DNA of 14,550 bases from Intestinimonas timonensis (GTDB lineage: Bacteria > Bacillota > Clostridia > Oscillospirales > Oscillospiraceae). Location: positions 49,494 through 64,043 of the forward strand of contig NZ_LR130817.1 in the NCBI RefSeq assembly GCF_900626145.1, written 5' to 3'. A model generated the notes under the pieces. The model was not told the DNA's origin. It ran no database searches and worked only from the letters and a program-made list of their open reading frames with translations. The stretch's first letter is position 1, and each line of letters opens with the position of its first letter. This document shows positions 8,019 to 14,550 of this stretch, piece by piece. Position numbers and translations under genes: made by a program.

Positions 8019-9071
8019 TTATGCCAAGAGCAAAATGGCGGCCCTAAGCTGCTCAATGTCTGTCTTGGTATAGTGTTCGGTCACGTTGCTGTCCGCATGC
8101 CCCAAGATGCGCTTGATCTCCAAATCAGGCGCGCCGGCAGCGTGGAGGCGGGTGAAGGCGGTATGACGGCACCAATGAGGGGTGGCCTGGGGGAGGCCGA
8201 GATCTGCTACAATAGGGTTGAAGGCATGCTTGCAGTACCAGTCATAAGTCAGGCGGCGGCCAGTGTCCCCGCAGATGATGGTGCTGCCTCCACGGGAGAG
8301 CCAGCGGAGCAGATACGGCTTGATCTTGGGGTGAACGGGGACGATCCGGTCCCGGCCGGCGCGGGTCTTGGAGCCGCCGCGCAGATAATCTCCCTCCCGG
8401 TCATAGGCAAAGGGTGTGAGGCCCAGAAACTCATTGATGCGGAAGCCGGTATAGCACAGCATCAGAACGGTATCAGCCCAGGGACGGCCGGAGGCGGCCA
8501 TCTCCTCCAAGTGTTTTATCTGGAAATCGTTGAAGACCCCCTTTTCATGCTTTGCGCCTACGGAGGGCATCTGGATGAATGCGGAGTAATCCTTGTCCAC
8601 GATATCCCGCTCCATCGCATAGCGGAACAGAGAGCGCATGAGAAGCCGGTCATTTTTCAGGGTAGACTGGGAGAGTCCCGCGGCCTCGTCGGCGTCAATG
8701 ATCCGCTGAAGGTGATCTATGGAGACGTCCTTCATCTTCATCCCGGCCAGGGCCTGCACACGGCTCCAGGAGGAGCGATAGCTGGTCACGGAGGCGTCGC
8801 CTGCCTTGGCATATTTCCGGGCCGACCACAGTTCATAGACCTTTCCAACAGTGATCGTGAGCCGGTCTAACTCCGAACCCGTCAGGGCGGTATGGTGAGC
8901 ATCATTGTAAGCATCCAGCGCAGCCTGTGCCTCGCTGAGCCTGGCATGGTAGCTCACTGCCTTTTGTACCAGCCGGCCATATTTGTCACGGACGGATACC
9001 CGCACCGCATAGGGCCTCCGGCGGTTGCCGGAGAGCTTGACCACGGTTCCTGTCCCATTGGCACGCCTCAT
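8019..9071 (-). CDS. int: Tyrosine site-specific integrase (350 aa)
   Basis: This is a phage/ICE-type tyrosine recombinase of ordinary length. A basic N-terminal arm-binding domain with an AP2-like beta sheet spans about 1-60. A SAM-like core-binding domain spans about 72-160. The catalytic domain is 175-350. The catalytic residues are present: R211 in C-Y-T-G-F-R-I-N-E, K235, H299 and R302 in T-P-H-W-C-R-H, H325 in I-L-G-H-A, and nucleophile Y334 in T-E-H-Y-T-K-T-D. ATG 9071 has GGGGTGAG upstream. It reads towards the host junction with a terminator at 7942-7975. It should catalyse integration and, with an excisionase (see 11719), excision. Confidence 0.95.
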   Translation of the reverse strand: MRRANGTGTVVKLSGNRRRPYAVRVSVRDKYGRLVQKAVSYHARLSEAQAALDAYNDAHHTALTGSELDRLTITVGKVYELWSARKYAKAGDASVTSYRSSWSRVQALAGMKMKDVSIDHLQRIIDADEAAGLSQSTLKNDRLLMRSLFRYAMERDIVDKDYSAFIQMPSVGAKHEKGVFNDFQIKHLEEMAASGRPWADTVLMLCYTGFRINEFLGLTPFAYDREGDYLRGGSKTRAGRDRIVPVHPKIKPYLLRWLSRGGSTIICGDTGRRLTYDWYCKHAFNPIVADLGLPQATPHWCRHTAFTRLHAAGAPDLEIKRILGHADSNVTEHYTKTDIEQLRAAILLLA

Positions 9072-9173: not shown

Positions 9174-9530
9174 TTATTTTATTTTTGCTGTAATTTTCCC
9201 CGATATCCGATTGAACCCAATTTCAACTCTTGTATCTTTTTGCAGGTCAAATTCAAGAGTAGTCTTCCGAATGCTAGCTGAGAGTTCTAGGACACAAGGT
9301 CCAGGTTCTACCTCTATTGTTTCGGTATGACCATTTTCGACAGAAGCAAAGATTGTCCCATTGATGGTCGCCTTAATTGGAGGATTCAGTAAGTAAATCT
9401 GACTTGCCCGGTCTAATATCAGTTTCACCGTTCCAGAGCCGGTTTCGGTAGAGAAGTTCTGCTTTGCACCACACTTGTGGCAAAACAAAGCATTATTTTG
9501 AAGTTCTTCTCCACACATAGAGCAAAACAT
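9174..9530 (-). CDS. Zinc-ribbon protein with C-terminal beta domain (118 aa)
   Basis: The N-terminus is a zinc ribbon with two C-x-x-C knuckles (C3, C6, C17, C20; M-F-C-S-M-C-G-E-E-L). A linker leads to a beta-rich domain (about 32-118) with P-I-K-A-T-I-N-G-T and I-E-V-E-P-G-P-C-V-L-E-L, resembling PEGA-like repeats. No membrane segment is seen. ATG 9530 is chosen because it starts at the zinc ribbon and GGGAGGG lies 7 nt upstream. It is last in the leftward XRE-protease operon, 47 nt after the protease stop. It is clearly more AT-rich than its neighbours, as expected for a recently acquired lysogenic cargo gene. Function unknown; expression in the lysogen is inferred from the operon. Confidence 0.8.
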   Translation of the reverse strand: MFCSMCGEELQNNALFCHKCGAKQNFSTETGSGTVKLILDRASQIYLLNPPIKATINGTIFASVENGHTETIEVEPGPCVLELSASIRKTTLEFDLQKDTRVEIGFNRISGKITAKIK

Positions 9531-9577
9531 TATAAATCCCTCCCACAAATACTTCTCTATGGTAGGCGTGTGCAATA

Positions 9578-9994
9578 TCAAGTCCTAAAAACTGTTTGGT
9601 AATACTGCAATGCATCCCGTAAAAAAGGCTCGGTTACATCAAAATATTCAGCCAACTCCCAAGGCTCATGGTAGCCCTGGCGGTAGGCCTCTATCAGCTC
9701 GTCCTCTGGGACGAGCTTTTCATATGCCCAGCGATTGGCATGCAGCTCATGCTTTTGACGGAGATCATGAGCTGCGCAACGGTTGTAGAAGGCGCCGGTC
9801 TCACAGTGGCCCAACTCATGGGCCAGCTTACACTTTTCGTCGGCCAGGGTGGGCATCCGCCAGGGGTCCATGGCGATGGCGTAGCTCCCGTCGTCCAGGG
9901 AAATGGACAGGGACTCAGCGGCGCCGAGGTCAAACCAGTAGACGTCAATGCTGTGGGCCTCCGCGAGGTTATAGAGCTCCAGGAGTTCAGCCAT
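9578..9994 (-). CDS. ImmA/IrrE-family metallopeptidase (138 aa)
   Basis: This is a zinc protease of the ImmA/IrrE (COG2856) family. The motif H-E-L-G-H lies at residues 59-63, and E83 in K-H-E-L-H-A-N-R-W-A is the likely third ligand. In Bacillus ICEBs1 and related phages, ImmA cleaves the XRE repressor encoded beside it and so triggers induction after DNA damage. ATG 9994 overlaps the last 8 nt of the repressor gene (ATGGCTGA) and has GGAG upstream, indicating translational coupling. An extension from 10051 would lie inside the repressor gene. The probable substrate is the repressor at 9987-10361. Confidence 0.93.
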   Translation of the reverse strand: MAELLELYNLAEAHSIDVYWFDLGAAESLSISLDDGSYAIAMDPWRMPTLADEKCKLAHELGHCETGAFYNRCAAHDLRQKHELHANRWAYEKLVPEDELIEAYRQGYHEPWELAEYFDVTEPFLRDALQYYQTVFRT

Positions 9995-10361
9995 TCTTTT
10001 TCTCCTGACGTTTTTTCTCAGCAAGGAAGGCCGCAAACCGTTCGACATCATTCCACATGTCGTCCAGTTCCTCTTGACTTAGGTCCTTTTCTCCGCCCCA
10101 GAAGGCGGCCTTCATTTGACCTTTGGTAACTTCATCTTCATGTGATGGAGACGAAGAGGAAGGCTTTGAGCTATCAGAGCGACCAATCACATAATCAACG
10201 GAGACAGAGAAATAGTCGGCAATTTTTTGGAGCGTATCAAAATCGGGTTCGTATTTACCAGTTTCATAGCCGGAGAGAGCTGCTTGACTGACAGAAATGT
10301 TTTTTGCCAGTTCAACTTGTTTCAGCCCTCTGGCAGTGCGGAGCTCACGGATTCGGTTCAT
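9987..10361 (-). CDS. XRE-family phage repressor (124 aa)
   Basis: The N-terminal HTH (about 1-60) shows I-R-E-L-R-T-A-R-G-L-K-Q-V-E-L-A, S-V-S-Q-A-A-L-S-G-Y-E-T-G and Y-F-S-V-S-V-D-Y-V-I-G-R. A Ser-rich linker (about 64-76) and an acidic helical C-terminus follow. There is no LexA/CI-type peptidase domain, which fits a repressor inactivated by the neighbouring ImmA protease rather than by RecA-stimulated self-cleavage. ATG 10361 has AAGGTGG 8 nt upstream; a GTG at 10373 lies inside that ribosome site and is rejected. It is divergent from the Cro-like gene and is the obvious candidate to bind the three operators at 10416-10500. Confidence 0.93.
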   Translation of the reverse strand: MNRIRELRTARGLKQVELAKNISVSQAALSGYETGKYEPDFDTLQKIADYFSVSVDYVIGRSDSSKPSSSSPSHEDEVTKGQMKAAFWGGEKDLSQEELDDMWNDVERFAAFLAEKKRQEKKNG

Positions 10362-11255: not shown

Positions 11256-11705
11256 ATGCCGGAGGAATGCCGGAATATCTACAAAATCTGCCGCAAGGCC
11301 GCCGGGTTTACCCAGGAGGCGGCAGCGGAGCGGCTGGGCATCAGCGTGGAGTCCATGCGGGCCTATGAGACCGGACAGCGGACGCCGCCTGATGATGTGG
11401 TGGACCTCATGTCCATCCTGTACAACGCCCTGCATCTGATCGCATGGCACGCCCGTGAGAAAAACGCCATGTACAGCCGGGTGGTGCCGGAGATCCAGCC
11501 CCGGTCAGTACTGGAGGCCAGCGCCAAGCTGACCAATCGCATCTACAAGTTTGCCGACGCCCACAGAAACCGGCGGCTCATGGAGATAGCGGAAGATAAC
11601 GTCATTGACACCGGCGAACGCCCGGAGTACGACGAAATCCTGGACGAGCTCGATGGAATCGTGGAGGCCGCCCTGGAACTGCGGTGCGCCCGACAGGGCG
11701 AGTGA
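11256..11705 (+). CDS. HTH (XRE-type) early phage protein (149 aa)
   Basis: The N-terminal HTH (about 5-55) reads I-C-R-K-A-A-G-F-T-Q-E-A-A-A-E-R-L-G-I-S-V-E-S-M, then Y-E-T-G-Q-R-T-P-P and D-D-V-V-D-L-M. A helical region follows with R-S-V-L-E-A-S-A-K-L-T-N-R-I-Y, and the C-terminus is acidic (Y-D-E-I-L-D-E-L-D-G-I). It starts at an ATG 7 nt behind GAGGAGGG. It is 13 nt upstream of the next gene, and the same GAGGAGGGAAACA leader precedes both, so they form one unit. Probably a DNA-binding early regulator; target unknown. The C-terminal part resembles nothing I can name. Confidence 0.85.
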   Translation: MPEECRNIYKICRKAAGFTQEAAAERLGISVESMRAYETGQRTPPDDVVDLMSILYNALHLIAWHAREKNAMYSRVVPEIQPRSVLEASAKLTNRIYKFADAHRNRRLMEIAEDNVIDTGERPEYDEILDELDGIVEAALELRCARQGE

Positions 11706-11718
11706 GGAGGGAAACAGA

Positions 11719-12084
11719 ATGAAACGGAAATCGAATGCCCCCACAGATGAGGAGATCATGGAGCACGCCAATGTGCCGGTATGGCTGGCGGCTTCTGCGA
11801 TTGGCTGGTCGTCCTGCACTTTGGCATCGGCGCTCCAGCAGGGCCGGGTCCCTTTCGGTTTTGCGGTGCAGAACGATGATACCGGGACATGGGCCTATAA
11901 CATCAATCCCGCCGGCCTGATCCGCTACCGCCATGGGGAGTTCCAAGCCATGGGCATGCGGGAGCTGAAAGAGATCTGGTCCGACATTGCCAACAGCATT
12001 GTGGACGCAAAACTGGAGTCAGCGCGGGTCATGGCGGCCGCCGTCACCGGAGCCGTGATGGGAATGGGGGGAGCGGCATCATGA
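11719..12084 (+). CDS. Excisionase/MerR-like HTH protein (121 aa)
   Basis: Residues about 12-70 look like the winged-helix fold of phage excisionase or MerR-type proteins: V-P-V-W-L-A-A-S-A-I-G-W-S-S-C-T-L-A-S-A-L-Q-Q-G, then R-V-P-F-G-F-A and Y-N-I-N-P-A-G-L-I-R-Y. The C-terminus is a long helix with a small, Gly/Ala-rich end (V-T-G-A-V-M-G-M-G-G-A-A). ATG 11719 has GAGGAGGG upstream; a longer frame from 11605 overlaps the preceding gene. A role as a directionality factor for the integrase is plausible but unproven. It overlaps the next gene by 4 nt. Confidence 0.75.
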   Translation: MKRKSNAPTDEEIMEHANVPVWLAASAIGWSSCTLASALQQGRVPFGFAVQNDDTGTWAYNINPAGLIRYRHGEFQAMGMRELKEIWSDIANSIVDAKLESARVMAAAVTGAVMGMGGAAS

Positions 12085-12404: not shown

Positions 12405-12545
12405 GCATCAACACGACCGTGCCGCCGCTGGGGCGGCGGGGATCAGGCGGAGCCGGCTCTTTCCCCCGGTAGGACGCCCGCCTCTGGCGTCACCGCGACC
12501 CGCCGCGCCAGGAGCGGCACGGAATAAACAGAAGGAGGGATTCAC
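12405..12545. other. GC-rich gap between early regulators and the membrane module
   Basis: No gene is supported here. A 6-bp hairpin, GCCGCC-GCTGG-GGCGGC (12421-12437), lacks a T-run. No clear -35/-10 pair is visible, so the downstream module is probably read from the early promoter. The gap ends with the AGAAGGAGGGA ribosome site of the next gene. Confidence 0.5.
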
Positions 12546-12698
12546 ATGGACTACATGGACGCGGACTGGACCCCAGTGAGGGAAAATCCCCGCAGGGAAT
12601 CGGGGCACGGCCTTGGAATCGTGCTGAAGGCAGTCGTAGTGATGGCAGCTATGGTCGCTGTTGCCGTGCTCACCGGAGCAGTGGTCTGCCTGAGATAG
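12546..12698 (+). CDS. Small single-pass membrane protein (50 aa)
   Basis: The start is supported by AGAAGGAGGGATTCAC before the ATG. An acidic N-terminal segment (M-D-Y-M-D-A-D-W-T-P) and a basic patch (R-E-N-P-R-R-E) are followed by one hydrophobic helix (about 24-48: I-V-L-K-A-V-V-V-M-A-A-M-V-A-V-A-V-L). Charge suggests the N-terminus stays in the cytoplasm. It sits 10 nt before the 26-aa gene and is the first member of a four-gene membrane cluster around the SPFH gene. Function unknown. Confidence 0.75.
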   Translation: MDYMDADWTPVRENPRRESGHGLGIVLKAVVVMAAMVAVAVLTGAVVCLR

Positions 12699-12708
12699 GA
12701 GGGGCGAT

Positions 12709-12789
12709 ATGAAGGCTGTGCTGTTCCTGTTTCTTATCATCTTCGCCACTGTTTTTTCCATCGTATATTACATGATGAATCGGAGGTAA
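12709..12789 (+). CDS. Tiny membrane protein (26 aa)
   Basis: The protein is almost entirely one transmembrane helix: M-K-A-V-L-F-L-F-L-I-I-F-A-T-V-F-S-I-V-Y-Y followed by a basic end, M-M-N-R-R. GGAGGGGC lies 3-8 nt before the ATG and overlaps the preceding stop region. The final codons (CGG AGG TAA) contain the GGAGG ribosome site of the SPFH gene, whose ATG begins 2 nt after this stop. Translation of the two is therefore physically linked, which argues that this short frame is used. Function unknown. Confidence 0.65.
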   Translation: MKAVLFLFLIIFATVFSIVYYMMNRR

Positions 12790-12791
12790 CT

Positions 12792-13661
12792 ATGAAATAC
12801 TTTGCATTTATCGCGGCTGTCGTCGTAGCTCTGGCGTGTGCCATCGGGGCCATTGTATCCTTGGAGATCGTTGAGACTGGAAATGTGGGCGTGGTCTACT
12901 CCACCAAGGGAGTGGAGGAGGAGACCATTTCTCAGGGGTGGCATTTCATGAGCCCGTTCCGCCATGTCAAGCAGTTCCCCATCTCCCAGCAGCAGATCGT
13001 TTTTTCCGATGACCCAGCGGACTACAACGATAACAAGCACCCAGACTGGTCCATCGATGCCCCCGCCAATGGGGGTATGGTCAAGATCAATCTCACCGTC
13101 AACTACAATTTTATCCCGGACAGGGTGGTCGATCTCTACCGCAAATTCAACGGTATGGATGGTTATACCATCGTGGAATCCCGCGTCCAGAACAGCATCA
13201 TTGCCTATGTCAAAGAAGTCACGCCGAAGTTTACGGTGATGGACATCTACTCGGATAAGAAGTCCGAGGTCAACGATGCCATCACCACCTACCTCAACGA
13301 AAGACTGACTGAGGAATATGGGATCAATGTCTCCAGTGCCTTGGTCATCGATGTGGAGCTGGACAATACCCTCATGGCCAAGGTACAGGCCAAGGAGCAG
13401 GCCAAGCAGGATGCAGAAATCGCGGAGCTGGAGCGCCAGACAGCCCAGGCCCAGGCAGAGACCGATCGTGTGATCGCGGAATCTGAGGCCGCCGTAAAGC
13501 TCATCGAAGCGGAGGCAGAGGCAGAGGCAAATCGCATCATTGCCGCATCCATTACTCCTGAGCTCATCCAGATGAAAGAGGCTGAGGCGAGGCTGGAGCA
13601 TGGCTGGATCACTGTCCAGGGGGCAAACACAGTCGTGACGGAAGCAGGCGGTGCCGCATGA
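12792..13661 (+). CDS. Phage-borne SPFH/prohibitin-like (Band 7) membrane protein (289 aa)
   Basis: An N-terminal membrane anchor (residues 4-24) is followed by an SPFH/Band 7 domain (about 25-195: I-V-E-T-G-N-V-G-V-V-Y, Q-G-W-H-F-M-S-P-F, V-K-I-N-L-T-V-N-Y). A long Ala/Glu-rich coiled coil (about 197-262, with repeated A-E-A-E) and a short tail complete the protein. This is the layout of prohibitin, HflK/HflC and related proteins, which form large membrane rings and often control FtsH-type proteases or membrane microdomains. The ribosome site is inside the preceding 26-aa gene, and the end overlaps the next gene by 4 nt. SPFH genes are mostly cellular; here it sits beside a phage initiator. 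Its role (membrane anchoring of replication, FtsH control, exclusion) is open. Confidence 0.92.
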   Translation: MKYFAFIAAVVVALACAIGAIVSLEIVETGNVGVVYSTKGVEEETISQGWHFMSPFRHVKQFPISQQQIVFSDDPADYNDNKHPDWSIDAPANGGMVKINLTVNYNFIPDRVVDLYRKFNGMDGYTIVESRVQNSIIAYVKEVTPKFTVMDIYSDKKSEVNDAITTYLNERLTEEYGINVSSALVIDVELDNTLMAKVQAKEQAKQDAEIAELERQTAQAQAETDRVIAESEAAVKLIEAEAEAEANRIIAASITPELIQMKEAEARLEHGWITVQGANTVVTEAGGAA

Positions 13662-13804
13662 TCGCCGAGCTTCAACGGTCCTGGCAGAAGATGACCCGGG
13701 CGGAGCGCCGCCGTACCCTGCGCATCCTGCGGGAGAGTGCCGTGGTGCTCGGCTGCATCGTGGTGGCCATCGGTCTGCCCGGCTGGGTCGAGTATATCTT
13801 GTGA
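13658..13804 (+). CDS. Small basic membrane protein (48 aa)
   Basis: The ATG overlaps the SPFH stop (ATGA), and GCGGTG lies upstream, so translation is coupled. The N-terminal half is strongly basic (R-S-W-Q-K-M-T-R-A-E-R-R-R-T-L-R). The second half is one hydrophobic helix (about 28-42: A-V-V-L-G-C-I-V-V-A-I-G-L). The basic half should stay in the cytoplasm and could contact DNA, RNA or the SPFH ring. The initiator gene begins 13 nt later. Function unknown. Confidence 0.72.
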   Translation: MIAELQRSWQKMTRAERRRTLRILRESAVVLGCIVVAIGLPGWVEYIL

Positions 13805-13817
13805 GGAGCGTGGTGGT

Positions 13818-14550
13818 ATGGCAGAGCGACCGGCCTACTGGGCCGTCATTCCCGCCTCCGTCCGCTACGACCAGGACCTGCCCCCCAATGCAAAGCTGCT
13901 CTACGGGGAGGTGACCGCCCTCTCGGACAAGCGTGGGTATTGCTATGCCCAGAACGGCTACTTTTCGGAGCTGTTCAGCCTGTCCGAGCGGAGCATCACC
14001 CGGCTCTTTGCGGTGCTGGTGGATCGGGGCTATCTGCGGGTGGACGTGATCCGGGACGAGAGCACCCAGGAGGTGCTGGAGCGGCGGATCTATCCCATTT
14101 ACGACCACGGGATATCAGAACCCCCTCCCGACATTTTTGTCGGGACCCCTCCTGACATTGCGCCGCAAGACATGGGCGGAGACTATACCCCTCCCGACAA
14201 TTTTGTCAGGACTCCTCCTGACAATTCTGACGGGACCCCTCCCGACAAAAATGTCGGGGGGAACGGTACAAGTTATGATTATAATATACCCCCTATAGTC
14301 CCCCAAGGGGGACAGCCCGAAAAACCGAAAGAACCCAAAGAACCGAAGCGGAAGCGGGCGTCCAAGAGCGTGCCCGCCTGGAAGCCGGAGCGCTTCGAGG
14401 CTTTTTGGAAGTTCTATCCCCGGCATGAGGACCGGGTGAGCGCCGTCCGGGAATGGGACAGGCTCAAGCCGGACGACGCTCTCATCGACACCATTGCCCG
14501 GGCCCTCAAGCGGCAGGTGCAGAACAAGGACTGGGCGGTGCCATACGCCT
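13818..14550 (+). CDS. Phage replication initiator (replisome organizer), cut by the window edge
   Basis: 244 codons are present and the frame is open at the edge. Residues about 1-95 form an N-terminal winged-helix region (N-A-K-L-L-Y-G-E-V-T-A-L-S, G-Y-F-S-E-L-F-S-L-S-E-R-S-I-T-R), as in phage and plasmid initiators. A Pro/Asp-rich linker (about 101-148) repeats T-P-P-D-x-x-x-G and is encoded by the iterons. A basic stretch (167-183) leads to a C-terminal domain (F-E-A-F-W-K-F-Y-P-R-H, W-D-R-L-K-P-D-D, I-A-R-A-L), typical of replisome organizers. ATG 13818 has AGGAGCG and TGGTGG upstream. It should bind its own internal repeats and load the helicase; a helicase loader gene is expected just beyond the edge. 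Confidence 0.85.
   Translation, partial: MAERPAYWAVIPASVRYDQDLPPNAKLLYGEVTALSDKRGYCYAQNGYFSELFSLSERSITRLFAVLVDRGYLRVDVIRDESTQEVLERRIYPIYDHGISEPPPDIFVGTPPDIAPQDMGGDYTPPDNFVRTPPDNSDGTPPDKNVGGNGTSYDYNIPPIVPQGGQPEKPKEPKEPKRKRASKSVPAWKPERFEAFWKFYPRHEDRVSAVREWDRLKPDDALIDTIARALKRQVQNKDWAVPYA
14127..14258. repeat. Palindromic iterons inside the initiator gene (probable phage origin)
   Basis: Four 18-bp palindromes lie at 14127-14144 (CCCGACATTTTTGTCGGG), 14193-14210 (CCCGACAATTTTGTCAGG), 14217-14234 (CCTGACAATTCTGACGGG) and 14241-14258 (CCCGACAAAAATGTCGGG). A degenerate half copy (CCTGACATT) is at 14151. Spacers are ACCCCT or ACTCCT, giving a 24-bp period for 14127-14151 and 14193-14217-14241. The period is eight codons, so the protein keeps its frame. 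Iterons inside the initiator gene are the pattern of lambda O and many Gram-positive phages. Confidence 0.85.
14269..14288. other. AT-rich stretch beside the iterons (candidate unwinding element)
   Basis: About 20 bp of almost pure A/T (ATGATTATAATATA core) follows directly after the last iteron in an otherwise GC-rich gene. Next come CCCCCTATAG and a CCCCC-AA-GGGGG hairpin (14300-14311). Phage origins usually place a DNA unwinding element next to the iterons. The assignment rests on composition and position. Confidence 0.55.

Follow-up and report, generated by a model that had tools for sequence, protein, structure and literature searches.

A Tiny Transmembrane Gene beside the SPFH Genes of Many Different Phages Suggests an Overlooked Two-part Viral Device

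Introduction

The prohibitin complex (PHB1/PHB2) is a mitochondrial assembly of two SPFH proteins, and we know of no micro-protein that is paired with it. A survey of cellular SPFH proteins assigned partners of the NfeD type to subfamilies 1, 2, and 5 but to no other subfamily; words that start with "phage" are absent from its main text (PMC2636767). A contribution of NfeD to SPFH oligomerization and assembly has been suggested (PMC13086221), and NfeD takes part in FloA multimers (PMC11222466). HflK and HflC form a periplasmic cage around the protease FtsH (PMC12048511). Here, a pair of genes is analyzed in a 14,550-nucleotide (nt) stretch of Intestinimonas timonensis DNA (contig NZ_LR130817.1, positions 49,494 to 64,043; the window), in which a micro-gene of 26 amino acids (aa) with one transmembrane helix directly precedes a gene for an SPFH protein of 289 aa.

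The pair resembles the NfeD-SPFH operons (FloA-NfeD, QmcA-YbbJ) in that an SPFH gene stands beside an adjacent, co-directional gene for a membrane partner. However, the partner of FloA combines six helices with an OB-fold domain (PMC11222466), whereas the phage partner has one helix and at most a short charged tail. Because 26 residues are too few for an OB-fold, the micro-protein is not an NfeD protein. Unlike HflK-HflC, the phage locus has a single SPFH gene, the profile of which is nearer to prohibitins. YdjI of Bacillus subtilis is an SPFH protein that needs the operon-encoded membrane partners YdjG and YdjH, but it is likely soluble and linked to PspA (PMC8581546), whereas the phage SPFH protein has its own helix. 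Phage λ CIII is a small protein acting on FtsH with involvement of HflKC (PMC1838920); it is an amphipathic FtsH inhibitor, whereas the micro-protein is a transmembrane helix encoded beside an SPFH gene. A CIII-like FtsH inhibitor was considered and rejected for the micro-protein, as its maximal hydropathy over 19 residues (2.57) is that of a transmembrane rather than an amphipathic helix.

The closest described phage arrangement is MbpV-MbpS of Kayvirus, an adjacent small transmembrane protein (MbpV, 102 aa) and SPFH protein printed as two predicted membrane proteins, but the passage concerned does not present them as a recurring pair (PMC7150955). The same authors suggested that MbpS helps in Tgl secretion, and a role in lysogeny has been suggested for other phage SPFH proteins by analogy with HflKC; the respective passages show no test (PMC7150955, PMC4936722, PMC8540360). 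The literature searched, in which subscription papers were largely not covered, yielded only proposals for the function of phage SPFH proteins and no description of one paired with a small protein.

Results

Most Related SPFH Genes Have a Small Transmembrane Neighbor

Relatives of the SPFH protein were collected from the genome_contigs collection (12 loci) and in scans of the viral_contigs collection (20 loci and the best 80 of 139), with many loci recurring. The phage collection gave 371 SPFH records and the plasmid collection 22, all less than 60% identical to the query; a second phage query gave 329 records, possibly overlapping with the 371. An earlier sequence-only reading of the window had stated that no phage system of this composition was described. 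This stands for the composition within the literature searched, but SPFH genes as such are common in phages and have been described, as for MbpS (PMC7150955). The nearest relative, locus L001, lies on a Candidatus Intestinimonas contig.

In most relatives, the gene immediately preceding the SPFH gene was a one-helix micro-open reading frame (micro-ORF). The two usually overlapped or lay only a few bases apart, and in many pairs the overlap was 4 to 11 nt. An automatic test was applied to 74 SPFH representatives (at least 200 aa, non-redundant at 90% identity) and to 353 other genes of at least 150 aa from the same loci. A partner was counted if it lay on the same strand, had its own ribosome site, encoded 18-110 aa with a 19-residue hydropathy of at least 1.8, and had its stop between -90 and +100 nt of the start of the tested gene; the helix in every counted partner is thus partly built into the test. 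Partners were found for 63 of the 74 SPFH loci and for 14 of the 353 controls, and within a tighter window of 20 nt either way for 58/74 and 8/353, respectively. The corresponding Fisher value of 1e-49 is not a true probability because the 74 representatives are related. When they were grouped at 60% identity, at least one member had a partner in 10 of 14 groups.

The SPFH loci were also checked by hand, the downstream side included. This check did not extend to the controls, and the automatic comparison is therefore the fair one. A partner was accepted at 68 of the 74 loci, five had none adjacent (L010, L011, L033, L118, and L120), and L113 was unsure. The automatic match at L118 was spurious, and that at L108 was the SPFH gene's own split N terminus, the real partner lying before it. 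Partners were added at L057 (hydropathy 1.78, just below the cut), L036, L034 (no Shine-Dalgarno sequence), L101, L119, and L122, the last two downstream of the SPFH gene. The fragments L009, L031, and L032 were excluded. Frames are disrupted at two of the accepted loci. In the copy at L101 (~4814), codon 2 of the partner gene is a stop, whereas the frame is open in the near relatives L102-L105. At L108 (4849-5028), the SPFH gene is broken close to its N terminus and occupies two frames, with an open partner frame preceding it.

The Micro-protein Is Conserved and Its Type Follows the SPFH Clade

Partner lengths ranged from 23 to 102 aa. A short type of 23-29 aa (11 loci) includes the protein of the window; of the 10 other loci, eight are neighbors of the window on the SPFH tree, L086 is placed elsewhere on it, and L004 is off the tree. 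Twenty loci have a MWxIFL-like type (mostly 48-63 aa) and 28 an MNPVFW-like type (mostly 47-59 aa), many of the latter with a motif like WFLLSxLFxPLG. A further 10 partners are of other types. Mapped on the SPFH tree, the type labels required 13 changes against a mean of 42.3 for shuffled labels. These labels were set by hand before the partners of L036 and L122 were found; L119 was also labeled as having none, and L078 was placed with the MWxIFL-like type although it looks MNPVFW-like. As judged from this strong clustering on the tree, micro-protein type follows SPFH clade.

Of 14 pairs of micro-genes chosen for a selection test, two were missing, two were identical, and one (L050/L051) had only two nonsilent changes. 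The nine pairs with silent changes gave nonsilent/silent per-site ratios from 0.00 to 0.40, with a pooled ratio of 0.26 for pairs with silent divergence below 0.75; the SPFH values of the pair L060/L061 came from a doubtful frame. Between the window and L001, the 26-aa gene had four silent changes in 17.3 sites and two nonsilent changes in 60.7. By these comparisons, the 26-aa micro-gene is under purifying selection at the protein level. Single-helix proteins of this size are real, as exemplified by Escherichia coli YohP with 27 residues and an N-out/C-in helix (PMC7549839).

The 26-aa protein had no match in Pfam, and none of 10 relatives of 28-63 aa scored above the Pfam cut-off. Matches of micro-proteins to PHROGs were weak except for phrog_35614, a family of unknown function (L114, E 7.4e-07; L110, E 9.2e-05). 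A homologue search with the 63-aa partner of L021 gave eight proteins, hypothetical where named. Very short ORFs are often missed by gene callers.

The SPFH Protein Is Modeled as Prohibitin-like

The SPFH product matched Band_7 (PF01145, E 1.8e-21, 77.4 bits, cut-off 23.6) and phrog_200 (E 1.7e-55). An AlphaFold2 monomer (predicted local distance difference test score 87.9, predicted template modeling score 0.69) has an N-terminal helix at residues 2-22 and a long helix at 192-253. Together with fold matches it indicates an N-terminal membrane anchor, an SPFH fold, and a long C-terminal helix. Prohibitins ranked first in both profile and fold comparisons, and the model is prohibitin-like. By analogy with its relatives, the protein is predicted to assemble as a ring or cage in the membrane.

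The charge rule applied to the 74 representatives gave 43 N-side, 8 C-side, and 23 equal cases. A lipobox-like motif was present in seven of seven Gram-negative relatives and in 4 of 78 SPFH proteins of the Bacillota set; Paxi also has the motif, but the later record DSS3P8 is without it. The evidence points outward without being decisive, and the ring probably lies outside the cytoplasm.

The Pair Recurs in Named Phages and Plasmids

Annotated genomes with a small transmembrane gene and an SPFH gene as immediate neighbors are those of Kayvirus P4W (mbpV-mbpS), jumbo phage AR9 (g180-g181), Troll (gp147-gp148), Sepunavirus SEP1 (103-104), and Sundance (100-99). In Enterococcus phage EF24C and in plasmids of Vagococcus, E. 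faecium, and L. reuteri, a small transmembrane gene directly follows the SPFH gene, and these four have a common MG(F/Y)FI start.

In eight of nine selected records of Gram-negative phages, the gene immediately before the SPFH gene encodes a small protein of one to three helices: ProddE, N4 (gp19-gp20), U47, P88 (gp11-gp12), phiCbK, Cyrano, Paxi, and DSS3P8. The exception is KB57. The nine were picked by hand, ProddE from another list and the rest among 40 listed of the 329 records, and no control was counted. Six of the eight partners have two helices, that of U47 has its helix at the C terminus, and that of phiCbK (116 aa) has three. The gene before gp19-gp20 of N4, gp18 (L141, 1284-1598), is annotated as superinfection exclusion.

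The SPFH protein of Arthrobacter phage AbbyDaisy, taken from the same listing, and those of contigs L151 and L152 have an extra N-terminal helix that aligns before the usual start, and no separate partner gene was found at these three loci. As judged from the alignment, they are a fusion form of partner and SPFH protein.

Comparison with L140 Delimits the Cassette

The window has probably captured the left end of a prophage or related integrated element, with host-type genes (glycosyltransferase, GtrA, LarA-like, ABC-F) followed by the integrase, the zinc-ribbon protein and IrrE-type peptidase, a helix-turn-helix (HTH) regulator, the SPFH module, and the replication initiator (Table 1). The zinc-ribbon and peptidase genes by the integrase have the arrangement of a lysogeny module. 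The sequence-only reading had described four closely packed frames, including genes of 50 and 48 aa, and the coordinates agree. It had likewise placed the ribosome site of the SPFH gene correctly inside the 26-aa gene; GGAGG lies within the final two codons of that gene, 5 nt before the SPFH ATG. The 26-aa gene is probably translationally coupled to the SPFH gene.

Table 1. Features of the window, in window coordinates
Feature	Position	Strand	Basis or remark
Integrase	8019-9071	-	Profile matches
Zinc-ribbon protein and IrrE-type peptidase	9174-10051		Profile matches; adjoin integrase
Early HTH regulator	11256-11705		Domain/PHROG profile matches
Structured non-coding leader before 50-aa gene	12408-12528	+	Also in L140, hence backbone
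50-aa one-helix protein gene	12546-12698	+	ORF list; helix read from sequence
Block present in window and L001, absent from L140	12570-13679	+	67 nt (L140 2953-3019) instead
26-aa micro-protein gene, one transmembrane helix, cassette partner	12709-12789	+	10-nt gap after 50-aa gene
GGAGG, SPFH ribosome-binding site	12782-12786	+	Read from sequence
SPFH/Band 7 gene, 289 aa	12792-13661	+	2-nt gap after 26-aa gene
48-aa one-helix protein gene, backbone	13658-13804	+	4-nt overlap with SPFH gene
Phage replication initiator	13818-14550	+	HTH_36; phrog_270, E 1.7e-30; extends past window end; neighbor outside cassette

Maximal 19-residue hydropathy (1.99 for the 48-aa product, in addition to the 26-aa value given above) supported a membrane helix in both. 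Changes between the window and L001, which carries all four frames and the initiator, were mostly silent in each of the three small frames (one-sided Fisher p for silent excess 0.018 for 26 aa, 0.0006 for 50 aa, and 0.003 for 48 aa, with site counts rounded). For this reason, all three are probably genes.

A scan with the 48-aa protein gave one locus, L140 of a related phage, the early region of which equals that of the window at 82-91% on both sides of the module, one upstream gene (~11711-12080) differing. A block is absent there that contains the complete 26-aa and SPFH genes, the greater part of the 50-aa gene, and the opening codons of the 48-aa gene. Its site is occupied in L140 by a single 71-aa one-helix gene, the beginning of which resembles the 50-aa gene and the end of which resembles the 48-aa gene; the initiator comes next. 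The 50-aa gene thus shares its opening codons with the 71-aa gene, and its remainder lies in the variable block. No SPFH match was found in the L140 record, which at 27,371 bases may be a fragment. By this comparison, the SPFH block is a unit that is present or absent. Insertion into the lineage of the window is a simpler reading than loss in L140 because other relatives carry the block amid unrelated neighbors.

The 48-aa gene and the initiator are accordingly not members of the cassette, the 48-aa sequence and the initiator both occurring in L140 without it. The 50-aa protein had no relative in the viral_contigs scan. The dedicated tiny partners proposed in the sequence-only reading are consequently borne out for the 26-aa gene, for which the suggested refutation, a lack of conserved small neighbors in related elements, fails; a module of three micro-proteins is rejected, as the 26-aa gene alone recurs.

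Neighbors of the cassette were compared for 125 of 181 script-called downstream genes plus the initiator of the window, substituted for a wrongly called frame, and for 92 of 122 upstream genes, minus-strand genes and list tails being omitted. Any one PHROG family was represented by at most 3 of the 126 downstream proteins and at most 2 of the 92 upstream ones. The named families, among those listed, mostly concern DNA metabolism (methyltransferases, dUTPase, ligases, topoisomerases, initiators). Among loci with neighbors examined, the initiator of the window adjoins the cassette only in L001. A tie to initiator or origin is rejected on the basis of L140 and the neighbor census. Within the initiator gene, at 14122-14261, repeats and palindromes (GACAATTTTGTC-like) look origin-like; they are poorly kept in L140. 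Relatives at E up to 1e-15 were present in 2/200 and 5/200 genomes of two host families.

The leader before the 50-aa gene folds as a long and closed hairpin with an energy of -72.3 kcal/mol and a z of -4.2 (z -3.6 in L140 and -3.0 in L001). Its identity (109/126 columns with L140, 118/125 with L001) is little above that of the flanking genes, its 27-base core has one exact match in viral_contigs, the L140 record, and Rfam had no match in the window, the leader included. It is possibly a phage regulatory RNA.

Discussion

At the level of sequence comparison, the pairing, its conservation, the purifying selection, the match of partner type to SPFH clade, and the presence or absence of the cassette can be regarded as established. 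Our reading of the locus retains two of the four genes and drops the initiator, and it extends to many phages rather than a single prophage. We lean slightly toward the view that the 26-aa and SPFH genes are one copy of a widespread phage two-gene cassette, in which a transmembrane partner and an SPFH cage act on host membrane proteins. The N-terminal helix would anchor the SPFH protein, the SPFH domain would lie on the outer side of the membrane, and the protein would form a cage in the manner of prohibitins and HflK/C. As a partner subunit, the micro-protein would have an N-out/C-in orientation and be placed in the cage wall or next to it, serving the phage SPFH protein as NfeD proteins serve cellular ones. 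Early in infection, the cage may enclose host membrane proteins or fence them off, the FtsH protease being the likeliest of these, and the altered degradation would favor the phage; we are least certain of the FtsH step.

An even chance is given to the broader view that tailed phages of Bacillota, Proteobacteria, and Actinobacteria share an unnamed system consisting of a prohibitin-like SPFH cage and a tiny dedicated transmembrane partner, which would correspond in viruses to the NfeD-SPFH and HflKC-FtsH assemblies. Its actinobacterial part is the fusion form, from one named phage and two contigs. Such a system would have escaped notice since its partner is very short and varies too much to be grouped into families.

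Several observations weigh against the proposed cassette function. FtsH is named by analogy, and for HflK/C both a shielding of substrates from FtsH and an enhancement of their degradation have been proposed (PMC12048511). The Streptococcus prophage SPFH genes L033, L118, L120, and L128, as well as L010 and L011, have no credible adjacent small transmembrane gene; the SPFH protein can therefore work without a partner. Little sequence is common to micro-proteins across types, so that a single partner family is not shown. Topology was judged from charge and from the lipobox-like motifs of relatives, with 23 of 74 cases undecided and only 4 of 78 Bacillota proteins bearing the motif. Finally, the Gram-negative partners mostly have two helices, the KB57 record has no partner, and no control count exists for them.

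A possible but rather unlikely alternative is superinfection exclusion or a membrane shield, in which ring and helix in the infected or lysogenic cell would block DNA entry of other phages or guard against pore-forming defense effectors. The accessory distribution is consistent with it (the 2/200 and 5/200 genomes, and presence in the window and L001 with absence at the same place in L140), as are the annotation of the gene before gp19-gp20 of N4 and a gene of this kind listed next to the SPFH gene of phage SH19 (PMC3220722). However, no exclusion family was among the 25 commonest neighbor families listed per side, and PADLOC gave no match for three SPFH proteins tested. The cassette also occurs in the large phages Kayvirus, EF24C, AR9, and Troll, which we take to be virulent. 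A known anti-phage defense system was rejected, the four window proteins matching 0 families in PADLOC-DB; weak matches of the L021 micro-protein (2TM effector, E 4.4e-4; Csx18, E 0.006) were judged to be helix matches.

Tiny hydrophobic proteins are often toxic, and a fixed gene pair would suit a holin-like or toxic micro-protein with the SPFH protein as its neutralizer. This is quite improbable given that partner length is variable (23-102 aa), that a fusion of partner and SPFH protein exists, that gene order varies (partner downstream in L119, L122, L130, and L132), and that lysis-family matches were only weak. Hardly any credence is due to the 26-aa ORF as a mere translational-coupling leader with a functionless peptide: the SPFH ribosome site inside it and the overlaps of 4 to 11 nt in many pairs would agree with such a role, but protein-level constraint, clade-specific motifs, and the fusion form argue against it, and a partner downstream of the SPFH gene is unable to act as leader. 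Equally slight is the likelihood that the SPFH protein, three micro-proteins, and the initiator anchor replication to the membrane, as the sequence-only reading had considered: the genes are contiguous in the window and L001, but the 48-aa sequence and initiator occur without the cassette in L140, neighbors are not conserved, and anchoring would need a cytoplasmic SPFH domain, whereas the ring is probably outside.

A two-gene cassette of transmembrane partner and SPFH cage bears on an open question of SPFH cages, namely their contents and membrane partners. SPFH genes are widespread in phages, and the conserved partner provides a handle, the two-gene unit being present in the model coliphage N4. 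The micro-genes themselves exemplify a class that is easily overlooked. Micro-gene and SPFH gene, as neighbors in many different phages, suggest an overlooked two-part viral device with a putative function at the host membrane.
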